This document shows positions 18,838 to 27,300 of a stretch of 64,000 bases of DNA, piece by piece. The number at the start of each line of letters is the position of its first letter. Within the stretch, counting starts at the first letter, position 1. Origin of the DNA: Bacteroidota bacterium (GTDB taxonomy: Bacteria; Bacteroidota; Bacteroidia; Chitinophagales; JADIYW01); NCBI GenBank assembly GCA_963169645.1, contig CAUJCO010000004.1, forward strand, positions 62,001 through 126,000, written 5' to 3'. A model generated the notes under the pieces. That model made no database searches. It saw nothing but the letters and a program-made list of their open reading frames with translations, and was not told the DNA's origin. The translations under genes and the position numbers were made by a program.

Positions 18838-19257
18838 TTAGAATCTTTCTAATTGACTGAAGAAGAAATTACCTTCAATTTCTGCATTTTCATCAGAGTC
18901 AGAACCGTGAACTGCATTTTCTCCAATTGATTTGGCAAAACGTTTACGAATAGTTCCTTCTTCTGCTTGAGCCGGATTCGTAGCACCAATTAATTTACGG
19001 AATGCTTCAACAGCATTTTCTTTTTCCAAAATTGCAGCAACAATTGGACCTCTGCTCATAAACTCAACTAATTCACCATAAAATGGACGTTCCTTGTGTA
19101 CTTCGTAAAATTTTCCGGCTTGTGCTTCAGATAGTTTCGTGTATTTTAAAGCCACTACTTTAAAACCGGCTTCTGTAATCATTGCTAAAATAGAACCGAT
19201 GTTATTTGCTTCTACTGCATCGGGTTTAATCATTGTAAATGTTCTGTTTGTTGCCAT
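18838..19257 (-). CDS. ndk: nucleoside diphosphate kinase
   Basis: 139 residues, standard bacterial length. It transfers gamma-phosphate between nucleoside tri- and diphosphates through a phosphohistidine. The start [16 protein letters not shown], the [26 protein letters not shown] block and [12 protein letters not shown] with the catalytic His are all intact. It has its own promoter box (19 nt upstream) and hairpin terminator. The repeat-rich 1-kb region begins directly upstream of its promoter. Confidence 0.97.
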
Positions 19258-19365: not shown

Positions 19366-19433
19366 TAATGAAATAGTGAAATAATGTAGTAATGAAATAA
19401 TGAAATAATGTAGTAATGTAGTAATGTAGTAAT
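19366..19433. repeat. octanucleotide tandem array
   Basis: About eight units alternating between AAATAATG and TAGTAATG types. The array ends exactly where the first GTCATTCCC palindromic element begins. Confidence 0.85.
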
Positions 19434-19586
19434 GTCATTCCCTTGAAAAAGGGAATCTCATTTATTAAGCGCAAAGCACTCAATGGTTTTACACAAAGTG
19501 CTCAAAGATTTTTTAATTAATTGTCATTCCCTTGAAAAAGGGAATCACATTTAAGTTCGTTGAGATTCCCACTTTCGTGGGAATGG
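19434..19586. repeat. palindromic repeat cluster 1
   Basis: Order: hairpin A (ATTCCCTT/AAGGGAAT, from 19434), element C (CGCAAAGCACT ... AAGTGCT, about 19470-19520), then a full A-B element (19523-19586) in which A is followed by hairpin B (ATTCCCAC tttc GTGGGAAT). The A-B outer ends, GTCATTCCC and GGGAATGGC, form terminal inverted repeats. Confidence 0.85.
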
Positions 19587-19610
19587 CTCTCTACTCACTA
19601 CTCACTACTC
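19587..19610. repeat. short heptanucleotide tandem array
   Basis: About three units of the ACTACTC type directly after the palindromic element. Confidence 0.7.
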
Positions 19611-19792
19611 AAAAAGTGCCGACCGCAGAAGATTTCGTTTTTTTGAAATACACAGCAATAGCTTTAAAATCAACGAAGCAAAGCCATCAGCATTTGCGTT
19701 GATTTTAGAAGCGGTTGATGTTAAGGAACGAAACATCAAATTGCCTTGTAGTTCAAAAAAAGCTTTTGTTACTTTTGGCTTCAAAAGTAAGA
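19611..19792. other. gene-free structured stretch with three successive hairpins
   Basis: No plausible gene. Three inverted repeats occur in a row: AAAATCAACG/CGTTGATTTT (19666-19675 with 19697-19706, extended by GCTT/AAGC), GATGTT/AACATC (about 19718-19737), and TTACTTTTG/CAAAAGTAA (about 19769-19790). It lies between two palindromic repeat clusters. It could be a decayed mobile element or a structured RNA; no promoter box was seen. Confidence 0.5.
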
Positions 19793-19820
19793 TAATGAAC
19801 TAATGAAATAATGAAATAAT
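19793..19820. repeat. octanucleotide tandem array
   Basis: About three units of the AAATAATG type, again ending exactly at a GTCATTCCC element. Confidence 0.7.
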
Positions 19821-20110
19821 GTCATTCCCTTGAAAAAGGGAATCTCATTTATTAACCGCAAAGCACTCAAAGTTTTCACACAAAGTGCTCAAAGATTTTT
19901 GATTAATTGTCATTCCCTTGTAAAACGGAATCTTATTTAAATTCGTTGAGATTCCCACTTTCGTGGGAATGACACACGCATCAAAATATAAACCGCAAAG
20001 CACTCAAAGTTTTTACACAAAGTGCTCAAAGATTTTTGATTAATTGTCATTCCCTTGTAAAACGGAATCTTATTTAAATTTGTTGAGATTCCCACTTTCG
20101 TGGGAATGAC
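19821..20110. repeat. palindromic repeat cluster 2
   Basis: Order A (19821), C, A-B (19909-19973), C, A-B (20046-20110). Two A hairpins have the same base change (AAAACGGAAT), which weakens their stem and shows they were copied from each other. The C elements contain AGCACT/AGTGCT pairs. Confidence 0.85.
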
Positions 20111-20203
20111 TCTCTACTCACTACTCAATACTCCCTACTCAATACTCAATACTCAATACTCAATACTCAATACTCAATACTCAATACTCAATACTCAATA
20201 CTC
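20111..20203. repeat. heptanucleotide tandem array upstream of nrnA
   Basis: Imperfect ACTC-rich units, then nine perfect AATACTC units (20141-20203). An open frame runs through it, creating a fake repetitive N-terminal extension of the next gene. Confidence 0.9.
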
Positions 20204-20250
20204 TACACTAACAAACAATAAAGAAAATACAAACGACATACATTCCATTT

Positions 20251-20270: not shown

Positions 20271-21272
20271 ATGGAAAACATACATGCTTTACAAGCTTTT
20301 TTAAGTTCGCAAAAAAATATTGTTATCACCACACATCAAAAACCGGATGGTGATGCAATGGGCTCTTCCTTGGCTTTGTATAATTATTTAGTTCCATTTG
20401 GACACACTGTTCGTGTTATTTCACCAACAGAGTATCCAACGTATTTTTCCTATTTGCCCGGTTATGATGAAGTTTGGAATTACTTAGAAAATCCACAATT
20501 AAGTCAAATTGCTATAGAAGCAGCCGACATTATTTTTTGTTTAGATTTCAATGATTTAAAAAGAATTGAACCATTAGATGAATTGATACAAAAAAATACG
20601 AACAAGAAAATTGTATTATTAGATCATCATTTATATCCGAAAATAGATGCAGACTGGATATTACACGATGTGAAAGCATCGTCAACATGCGAGTTGGTTT
20701 TTCGATTCTTAGAAATATACGATCCGAAATTTAAGATTACACATGAAATTGCTGAATGCATTTACACCGGAATTCTTACCGATACAGCAAGTTTCTCAAA
20801 TGGTGCCACCAACAAAAAATCATTAGAGATTGCTGCTCATCTATTGGATTGTGGCTTAAATATCATTTATGTTCAAGAGCAATTAAACCAAAATGGTCGA
20901 GAGGAAAAATTGCGTTTTTTAGGTAATGCTTTGTTCCGAAACATGATTATCCGTGAAGATATTGGCATTGGTATTATTGTAGTTGATAAAAAAGATGCTT
21001 ATCGTTTTAATTTACAAACAGGTGATACGGAAGGTTTGGTCAATTACCCTTTAACAATAAAAAATGTGAAGGTGGCTATTCTAATTAAACAAGAACCAAA
21101 AATCATCAAACTATCATTTAGAAGTAAAGGCGATTATTCCGTAGAAAAAATATGTCGTGAGCACTTTGAAGGTGGTGGTCATCGCAATGCTTCCGGTGGT
21201 CGTTCTTTCCTTACTGTTCAAGAAACAATTGACAAGATTATTGCCATTTTTGAAAAAGAAAAGTTGGTTTAA
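20271..21272 (+). CDS. nrnA: DHH-family phosphoesterase, NrnA-like oligoribonuclease/PAP phosphatase
   Basis: 333 residues from the ATG at 20271. NrnA-type enzymes degrade nano-RNAs and 3'-phosphoadenosine 5'-phosphate. The DHH domain carries HQKPDGDAMGSSLAL (residues 22-36), CLDFNDLKRIEPL, LLDHHLYP with the name-giving DHH, and GILTDTASFSNGAT. The C-terminal DHHA1 domain carries GGGHRNASGGRS. The frame runs 57 codons further upstream, but that part is translated heptanucleotide repeat lying upstream of two promoter boxes and is rejected. The gene is an island between two repeat clusters. Confidence 0.92.
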   Translation: MENIHALQAFLSSQKNIVITTHQKPDGDAMGSSLALYNYLVPFGHTVRVISPTEYPTYFSYLPGYDEVWNYLENPQLSQIAIEAADIIFCLDFNDLKRIEPLDELIQKNTNKKIVLLDHHLYPKIDADWILHDVKASSTCELVFRFLEIYDPKFKITHEIAECIYTGILTDTASFSNGATNKKSLEIAAHLLDCGLNIIYVQEQLNQNGREEKLRFLGNALFRNMIIREDIGIGIIVVDKKDAYRFNLQTGDTEGLVNYPLTIKNVKVAILIKQEPKIIKLSFRSKGDYSVEKICREHFEGGGHRNASGGRSFLTVQETIDKIIAIFEKEKLV

Positions 21273-21332: not shown

Positions 21333-21648
21333 GTCATTCCCTTGTAAAAGGGAATCGCATTTAAGTTCATTAAGATTCCCACTTTCGTGGGAATGGCACG
21401 CTCATCAAAATATGAACCGCAAAGTGCACAAAGTTTTTCATTAACTGTCATTCCCTTGAATAAGGGAATCGCATTTAAGTACATTGAGATTCCCACTTTC
21501 GTGGGAATGACACGATCATCAAAATATGAACCGCAAAGCTCACAAAGTATTTACACAAAGTGCTCAAAGATTTTTTGATTAATTATCATTCCCTTGTAAA
21601 AGGGAATCCCATTTAAGTGCGTTGAGATTCCCACTTTCGTGGGAATGA
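21333..21648. repeat. palindromic repeat cluster 3
   Basis: Three full A-B elements of about 65 bp (21333-21397, 21447-21511, 21585-21648), separated by C-type spacers (ACCGCAAAG...). Between nrnA (21272) and pdxJ (21750) there is no gene; short in-frame stretches here are only translated repeat. Confidence 0.85.
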
Positions 21649-21683
21649 CTCTATACTCTATACTCTATACTCTATACTCTATA
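21649..21683. repeat. heptanucleotide tandem array
   Basis: Five units of the ACTCTAT type directly after the last A-B element. Confidence 0.85.
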
Positions 21684-21749: not shown

Positions 21750-22463
21750 ATGACAAGATTATCCGTAAACCTTAATAAAATAGCCTTAATCCGCAATTCA
21801 CGCGGCAATAATTATCCTGATTTAATACAAGTAGCAATAGATTGTGAGCGGTTCGGAGCACAAGGAATTACCGTGCATCCACGGCCGGATGAACGGCATT
21901 GTAAATTTTCAGATTTACCTTTATTAAAAGAAAACTGCACGACCGAATTTAATATAGAAGGATATCCAAGTCAACATTTTTTAAATGAAGTAATTCGAGT
22001 AAAACCACATCAATGTACTTTAGTGCCGGATGATCCAAATCAAATTACATCTGATCACGGTTGGGATACCATCAAGCATCAATCATTTTTAAAAGAAATC
22101 ATTCAAGAATTAAAAGCACACCAAATTCGTGTTTCTTTATTTATTGATGCAGATGCAAAATTAATTGAAAGTGCTTCTAAAATTGGTGCTGACAGAATTG
22201 AATATTACACAGGTCCGTATGCCAAAAATTATTTAAGCAATCCGGAAAATGCCATTAAGGAAATAAAAGAAACCTGCTATATTGCTATTCAAAACGGATT
22301 AGGTATTAATGCCGGACATGATTTGAATTTAGACAATTTAAAGTACCTGAAAGATAATTTACCACAATTAGATGAAGTGTCTATTGGTCATGCTTTAATT
22401 TGCGACGCTATTTATCTGGGTTTAGAAAACACGATACGATTGTATCTCAATAAACTAACATAA
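21750..22463 (+). CDS. pdxJ: pyridoxine 5'-phosphate synthase
   Basis: 237 residues. PdxJ condenses 3-amino-2-oxopropyl phosphate with 1-deoxyxylulose 5-phosphate to make pyridoxine 5'-phosphate, the last ring-forming step of the DXP-dependent B6 route. Signatures include LSVNLNKIALIRNSRGNNYPD, ITVHPRPDERH, FNIEGYPS, LVPDDPNQITSDHGWD, SLFIDAD, EYYTGPYA and the phosphate loop NAGHDLN with SIGHALI. All key residues look intact. It converges with the E1 gene with a 4-bp gap and no visible terminator. Confidence 0.97.
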   Translation: MTRLSVNLNKIALIRNSRGNNYPDLIQVAIDCERFGAQGITVHPRPDERHCKFSDLPLLKENCTTEFNIEGYPSQHFLNEVIRVKPHQCTLVPDDPNQITSDHGWDTIKHQSFLKEIIQELKAHQIRVSLFIDADAKLIESASKIGADRIEYYTGPYAKNYLSNPENAIKEIKETCYIAIQNGLGINAGHDLNLDNLKYLKDNLPQLDEVSIGHALICDAIYLGLENTIRLYLNKLT

Positions 22464-26929: not shown

Positions 26930-27297
26930 GGGGTTGACAGGAATTGACGGCAGGATAGTTGGTAAGTAAGCATGCCGAGCATTGTGCAATTTGGCTCGTA
27001 AAACTTAACGCATGAAACTTTTTTATATGGCGAGAATAATTTCGCGTTGGCTGCTTAATACAGGTTATTAAGCTTGGCCTTTGCTCCTCGAATCGGTTTT
27101 TCCGATGCCATTCGACTGAGCATCATCCAATCGGAATAGTTGCTTAAAGGTTTCGATTAAGTAATGAAATAAAGAAAATAAGATTTTAATCGGTTAGCAA
27201 AAACGCCTGTTAGAATACGAAAAACAAGTTTGGGCTAAGCATGTAGAAAGCTTATGAACGTTTTGTCCGGACGCGAGTTCAAATCTCGCCAGCTCCA
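26930..27297 (+). ncRNA. ssrA: transfer-messenger RNA
   Basis: The 5' end GGGGTTGAC pairs with GTCAGCTCC-like 3' sequence (CAGCTCC ending at 27297), forming the alanine-tRNA-like acceptor stem. GGACGCGAGTTCAAATCTCG is the T-arm. The tag frame at 27029-27058 reads GENNFALAA then TAA, the Bacteroidota-type proteolysis tag. The G-U pair at acceptor position 3 is the AlaRS identity element. The CCA end is not encoded (the genome reads ACTA). It works with SmpB to rescue stalled ribosomes; alaS, which charges it, is also in this window. Pseudoknots lie between tag and 3' end, and a hairpin terminator follows. Confidence 0.97.
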
Positions 27298-27300
27298 CTA

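Follow-up and report, generated by a model that had tools for sequence, protein, structure and literature searches.

Short hairpin repeats crowd the intergenic DNA on both sides of a DHH phosphoesterase gene in this Bacteroidota genome (2.70 Mb, 14 contigs). What are they, and how did they come to be there? The window, by which we mean the whole 64,000-nucleotide stretch analysed, had been the subject of an earlier note, which described at 19434-20110 a family of double hairpins, A followed by B, about 65 bp long, bounded by terminal inverted repeats and interspersed with a second palindrome, C. Our map of the region, in window coordinates, is as follows.

18838-19257, minus strand: ndk, nucleoside diphosphate kinase, the left neighbour (Pfam NDK, 1.6e-53)
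19379-19434, plus strand: 8-mer array (AAATAATG/TAGTAATG), running into REP-A (repeat mapping)
19434-19457, plus strand: solo REP-A, stem dinucleotide TT/AA (unit mapping)
19463-19513, plus strand: C element, imperfect palindrome GCGCAAAGCACT...AGTGCTCAAAG (repeat search)
19523-19587, plus strand: A-B head-head heterodimer 1, with A at 19523-19546 (plus) and B at 19564-19587 (minus) (unit mapping, alignment)
19592-19612, plus strand: 7-mer array (TACTCAC), following B (repeat mapping)
19611-19790, plus strand: E, a 180-bp structured repeat with a long stem, two inner arms and then a 9-bp terminal hairpin (fold z -6.9, compensatory changes, 11 full genome copies)
19791-19821, plus strand: 8-mer array directly after E (repeat mapping)
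19821-19844, plus strand: solo REP-A (unit mapping)
19850-19903, plus strand: C element (repeat search)
19909-19973, plus strand: A-B heterodimer 2 (unit mapping, alignment)
19985-20040, plus strand: C element, the copy used as query (repeat search)
20046-20110, plus strand: A-B heterodimer 3 (unit mapping, alignment)
20115-20205, plus strand: 7-mer array (TACTCAA)n (repeat mapping)
20271-21272, plus strand: DHH/DHHA1 phosphoesterase gene, between the two clusters (Pfam DHH, 6.5e-23)
21333-21397, plus strand: A-B heterodimer 4 (unit mapping, alignment)
21409-21438, plus strand: C element, shortened (repeat mapping)
21447-21511, plus strand: A-B heterodimer 5 (unit mapping, alignment)
21523-21575, plus strand: C element (repeat mapping)
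21585-21649, plus strand: A-B heterodimer 6 (unit mapping, alignment)
21654-21681, plus strand: 7-mer array (TACTCTA)n (repeat mapping)
21750-22463, plus strand: pdxJ, the right neighbour (Pfam PdxJ, 2.3e-89)

The six full A-B units and two solo A units that had been counted were recovered with their coordinates, all six A-B units are exactly 65 bp long, and palindrome C (AGCACT..AGTGCT) does lie between these units. The 180-bp structured repeat at 19611-19790 and the 8-mer and 7-mer arrays, within or beside the same coordinates, had been overlooked. The A and B stems, described as different in sequence and both paired, have the sequences claimed (ATTCCCTT/AAGGGAAT in A, ATTCCCAC/GTGGGAAT in B) and do pair, but they are not unrelated, since reading B from the minus strand gives the 24-nt unit of A. 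A and B are a single 24-nt unit in opposite orientations, GTC-ATTCCC-NN-GAAA-N'N'-GGGAAT-C, present in 14 copies at 19434-20110 and 21333-21649. Similarly, the inverted sequence at the termini is present, but it consists of the 5' halves of two inverted 24-nt units. Each unit has a hairpin with an 8-bp stem, with AT at its first two positions, and a 4-nt loop that is GAAA or GTAA in most units; the inner two stem pairs are TT/AA in A and AC/GT in B. After the stem comes C, and then TCA, CCA, TTA, ACA or GCA (alignment A1 of the dimers). The tag, counted by hand from the flanks at the 52 ends of 26 dimers, is TGTC at 45, AGTC at 5, and CGTC and GGTC at 1 each. Matches to GTCATTCCC with at most one mismatch number 22 in the window versus 7.7 expected, a count reached in none of 100 shuffles.

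Copies are found genome-wide and are conserved in length; the suspicion that they might be confined to this locus and have variable boundaries can be dropped. A single A-B unit used as a BLAST query gave 60 matches on eight contigs of the genome, and at least 88 units (up to 4 substitutions) were mapped in the fetched stretches, a number that undercounts diverged units because the loci were retrieved through their resemblance to a single unit. Exact units number 30 across the genome, versus none for the reversed control pattern. The clusters are intergenic, lying between full-size ORFs; we take the short ORFs that overlap them (82-154 aa) as spurious. The exact unit is also present in 30 of 395 Bacteroidota genomes, and in 8 of 40 relatives when this genome is counted.

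Variation among the copies follows the predicted stem. At the two variable stem pairs of the 88 units, 168 of 176 cells are Watson-Crick, 3 are G-U and 5 are mismatched, versus a mean of 84.3 Watson-Crick cells (sd 6.5, maximum 110) when stem partners were shuffled. This covariation argues that the unit hairpins are real. Which fold a whole dimer adopts is less clear-cut. In the alignment of 26 dimers, 95.2% of cells are paired under the two-hairpin structure, with 29 double-change cells versus 10.6 in shuffles, whereas the long hairpin, A against B, is 82.6% paired and has a single double-change cell, under its shuffles. RNAalifold on the same alignment recovered hairpin B alone. Calculated DNA energies put the two-hairpin form below the long hairpin as drawn in 19 of the 26 dimers, by 1.7 kcal/mol on average; the preference is weak, because folding without constraints yields a bubbled long hairpin as the minimum-energy structure in 18 of the 26. 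By these calculations the two forms are close in energy and neither prevails.

The 26 dimers are tight head-head (+ -) pairs whose units are separated by 15-20 nt, most often 17 (16 of 26). Four tight - + pairs, separated by 29 nt, were also found, and solo units are common. In all 26 dimers of this genome the inner stem dinucleotides of the two partners are unlike, i.e., the dimers are heterotypic. Pairing these units at random would yield 20.8 heterotypic dimers of 26 (P = 0.002); this P value treats related copies as independent events and must be read with caution for that reason. A comparison across Bacteroidota gave, among the dimers listed, at least 15 heterotypic dimers in six genomes (G000, which is this genome, 5; G357, 2; G117, G177 and G111, 1 each; G351, 5) and at least 14 dimers homotypic by their stem pairs in five others (G100, 5; G419, 2; G217 and G049, 1 each; G054, 5). 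For two of these genomes the dimers listed are part of a larger set, 5 of 9 in G000 and 5 of 6 in G054. By hand count, no genome has both types among the dimers listed, and dimer type looks fixed per genome.

The array between ndk and the DHH gene is a lineage-specific insertion. The ndk-DHH gene order is kept in all 7 same-genus genomes examined, and the gap between the genes is 1013 bp here versus 127-189 bp in all 7, none of which has a unit upstream of the DHH gene. The DHH-pdxJ gap is 477 bp here, 3-80 bp in five relatives and 359 bp in a sixth, G003; in the seventh, G006, the region downstream of the DHH gene differs. The G003 gap holds three diverged units, which appear to represent a separate insertion into this site. 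One observation on these units is that they read GTCATTTCC..GGAAATC (locus L063, 2536-2818), a stem change that is compensated.

One 24-nt hairpin unit, dispersed in intergenic copies, with a covarying stem and a near-fixed dimer length, is what the earlier note's "MITE- or REP-like" has to account for. The REP half of that description fits well: the elements are dispersed, length-conserved, intergenic, hairpin-forming and arranged in head-head pairs. They closely resemble the CGTC REPs, described as having a CGTC, often TGTC (also CCTC), tag, as forming mostly head-head dimers and as occurring in Bacteroidetes among other phyla (PMC3733652; Di Nocera, De Gregorio and Rocco 2013). In the parts of that survey relevant here, the CGTC-1 family is given an 8-bp stem beginning with AT, a 4-nt loop and a short unpaired tail, mostly CCA, and includes dRS3 of Neisseria (PMC3733652). 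Our units share with it the unpaired 5' tag, TGTC being a stated variant, the stem starting with AT, the loop, the head-head dimers and the Bacteroidetes host, and in neither case was a flanking transposase found, here among 100 Y1 stretches. They differ in being nearly always TGTC-tagged, in a tail in which CCA is not clearly recognizable, and in being embedded in a fixed order with E, C and the 8-mer and 7-mer arrays. Homodimers are said to predominate in CGTC-1; two named species have heterodimers only, and the same account finds "no obvious explanation" for the preference for unlike partners (PMC3733652). In other respects the repeat is of a known kind, set in a Neisseria-like mosaic; what is new here is that all 26 dimers are heterotypic and stand in a fixed-order mosaic with a structured repeat.

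We therefore regard it as probable that the units are CGTC-1-type REP elements, a TGTC-tag variant like dRS3, present mostly as head-head heterodimers in an intergenic mosaic, moved by an enzyme that is encoded elsewhere or has been lost, and amplified by recombination. Each unit, as a single strand, would fold into a hairpin with an 8-bp stem, a loop of GAAA type and GTC as its 5' tag; that enzyme would have recognised the hairpin, and the element would have moved as a non-autonomous passenger. Once several repeats had gathered, recombination between them may have copied A-C-A-B blocks, along with E, the 8-mer arrays and the 7-mer arrays, inside a cluster or from one cluster to another, and so produced the fixed order; it is from the mosaic order that we infer recombination as the amplifier. 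With unlike A and B stems the dimer would not form a single long palindrome without mismatches; a two-hairpin form could then compete with the long hairpin and thus might reduce the cost at replication forks. Effects at mRNA ends, if any, would be secondary.

The order of the mosaic, with its polarity, is E, 8-mer array (AAATAATG/TAGTAATG), REP-A, C (CCGCAAAGCGCACAAAG...), A-B and 7-mer array (TACTCAC); many clusters have only part of it. Whole-genome searches found 12 matches to E and 21 to C, and every one (12/12 and 21/21) lies inside a unit cluster. The 8-mer array and REP-A follow E in all 11 full-length E copies of this genome. Another palindrome, D (TTGGTCGGATGACTGTAAGTCATCTGACCAA), occurs beside C in several clusters, on contig C7 at 164.6-165.8 kb and on contig C14 at 196.2, 203.6 and 215.9 kb.

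E is a structured intergenic repeat of 160-190 nt with conserved loop motifs. Its fold has a z of -6.9 versus shuffles, and compensatory changes affect 8 of 21 predicted pairs of the inner stem and terminal hairpin among 17 sequences; it was the one repeat for which a model was built. E loci include, besides the window copy (19611-19790), contigs C4, C7, C9, C10, C13 and C14 of this genome and fetched loci L074-L103 and L174-L203. The idea that E might be common across Bacteroidota was not borne out: among 298 genomes of the order it was found in five of the same genus and weakly in two others, and it is present in two further MAGs. No match to E was found in plasmids, phages or IMG/VR. In relatives, namely other species of the genus, E is solitary; elsewhere in the order it forms a diverged multicopy family, with 9 copies in G577. 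Neither a REP nor an 8-mer array was found at any of 29 E loci checked in relatives (some overlap, and so represent fewer than 29 places), and no REP was found at 10 E loci from the search that yielded the two further MAGs. The absence of REPs from the relatives' E loci checked suggests that E is an independent element whose association with the REPs arose in this lineage.

A further possibility is that the whole composite moves, and not the REP dimer. E, a branched-stem DNA or RNA element, would then have captured CGTC REP arrays in this lineage, a single-strand-processing enzyme would act on E, and the passengers would be the REPs, the C elements, the 8-mer arrays and the 7-mer arrays. We hold this reading to be unlikely. 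If it were true, CGTC REPs would gain an indirect means of spread that needs no transposase belonging to them. What deserves follow-up at this locus is the joined E element and the dimer type per genome.

An alternative to our preferred reading is that a cognate RAYT (a Y1 HUH transposase) mobilises the pair as a REPIN, as for GTAG REPs, for which an HUH cleavage model has been described (PMC8266576). The general anatomy is alike: GTAG REPINs or BIMEs are likewise dispersed, non-autonomous, inverted pairs of tagged hairpins. However, the units here have no GTAG tag. The earlier note had proposed looking for a RAYT bearing the same ends, and none was found among 100 Y1 stretches. This genome has two Y1_Tnp genes, and PF01797 was matched in all 13 genomes of the family (33 hits), but the palindromes at both of this genome's own Y1 genes are different ones. 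The first (L031, 1300-2250) is a RAYT-like gene of 182 aa flanked by GCGGTC-AGA-GACCGC, with its 3' end duplicated downstream; the second (L032, 1200-2350), also RAYT-like and of 186 aa, has many GGTTCGTG/CACGAACC palindromes, with its own 3' end partly duplicated downstream. These repeats are palindromic, like the units, and adjoin their Y1 genes, but GCGGTC-AGA-GACCGC and GGTTCGTG...CACGAACC are unrelated to ATTCCC. The claim that the window is free of a transposase stands as far as a contig with no PF01797 match and 10 Pfam-scanned ORFs, none a transposase, can carry it; the scan covers 10 of the 62 window ORFs that reach 100 aa or more.

The search for units beside enzyme genes was a search of the Y1 class. 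It took in 100 Y1 stretches from 42 genomes, comprising 30 of the 33 hits in the 13 family genomes and 70 stretches, some sharing one hit, that cover about 68 of the 135 hits from 29 genomes in which the unit occurs. No unit was found flanking the Y1 gene in any of the 100. Relaxed unit matches occur in four (L134, L163, L108 and L114); in the first three other genes or ORFs separate the unit from the Y1 gene, and the fourth is a 3-substitution match. Candidates set aside include G308, where a perfect unit lies about 755 bp from a Y1 gene that has its own CAGGTC..GACCTG palindromes, with a further gene apparently between; G237 (L163), where a 246-aa ORF intervenes and the Y1 gene has its own GTCAGAC palindromes; and L108, where the unit lies beyond two ORFs. 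Four of the 29 unit-bearing genomes (G357, G317, G351 and G209), in which GTCATTCCC units are present, have no PF01797 match, which argues that a Y1 enzyme is not obligatory for keeping the repeats. The 2013 survey, in the parts cited here, likewise reports no flanking transposase for CGTC REPs (PMC3733652), and we found no later report of a CGTC REP enzyme in the open-access literature. A Y1 subclass of Bacteroidetes, 2.6, is described as having atypical flanking structures (PMC6006769). Taken together, mobilisation by a cognate RAYT appears improbable. To the 2013 description of CGTC REPs without a transposase (PMC3733652) the locus adds unit-bearing genomes with no detectable Y1 transposase, an apparent dimer type per genome among the dimers listed, and a lineage-specific mosaic in which REPs keep a fixed order with a separate structured repeat. 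The four genomes named above are good places to seek another mobilising enzyme.

Somewhat more doubtful still is that the units serve as recombination or integration sites and that the arrays grow by site-specific recombination. dRS3, with the pattern ATTCCC(N8)GGGAAT, is part of the neisserial intergenic mosaic elements (NIMEs), in whose arrays it is the target of the integrase of the filamentous phage Nf1 (PMC3898611, in the sections relevant here). The mosaic here is similarly organised, with ATTCCC(N8)GGGAAT units clustered among other repeats in intergenic DNA, a comparison of organisation and not of the partner-repeat sequences (E, C, D, 8-mer and 7-mer). A unit with the TCA tail was matched, though, on only one IMG/VR contig, as a single unit at the edge of an ORF.

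The location of the units between ORFs and the few G-U pairs in the variable stem (3/176) could suit RNA hairpins at transcript ends whose spread is incidental. This is very unlikely to be their main role, as the array is missing from the orthologous site of all 7 relatives and is therefore not a required terminator at that site. Least credible is the MITE half of the earlier description, a DDE transposase acting on GTCATTCCC as terminal inverted repeats: the 65-bp unit is length-conserved and its ends are near-perfect (alignment A1), but this explanation is not supported, since no target-site duplication was seen by eye in the flanks of the 26 dimers, solo units are common, and the internal hairpins are conserved too and covary.

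At gathering level, a search of the whole window against Rfam gave no match for E; FtrB and other matches obtained at loose thresholds scored far below gathering level and are taken as chance. The tmRNA, at 26930-27298 and encoding the tag GENNFALAA, was the one gathering-level match.
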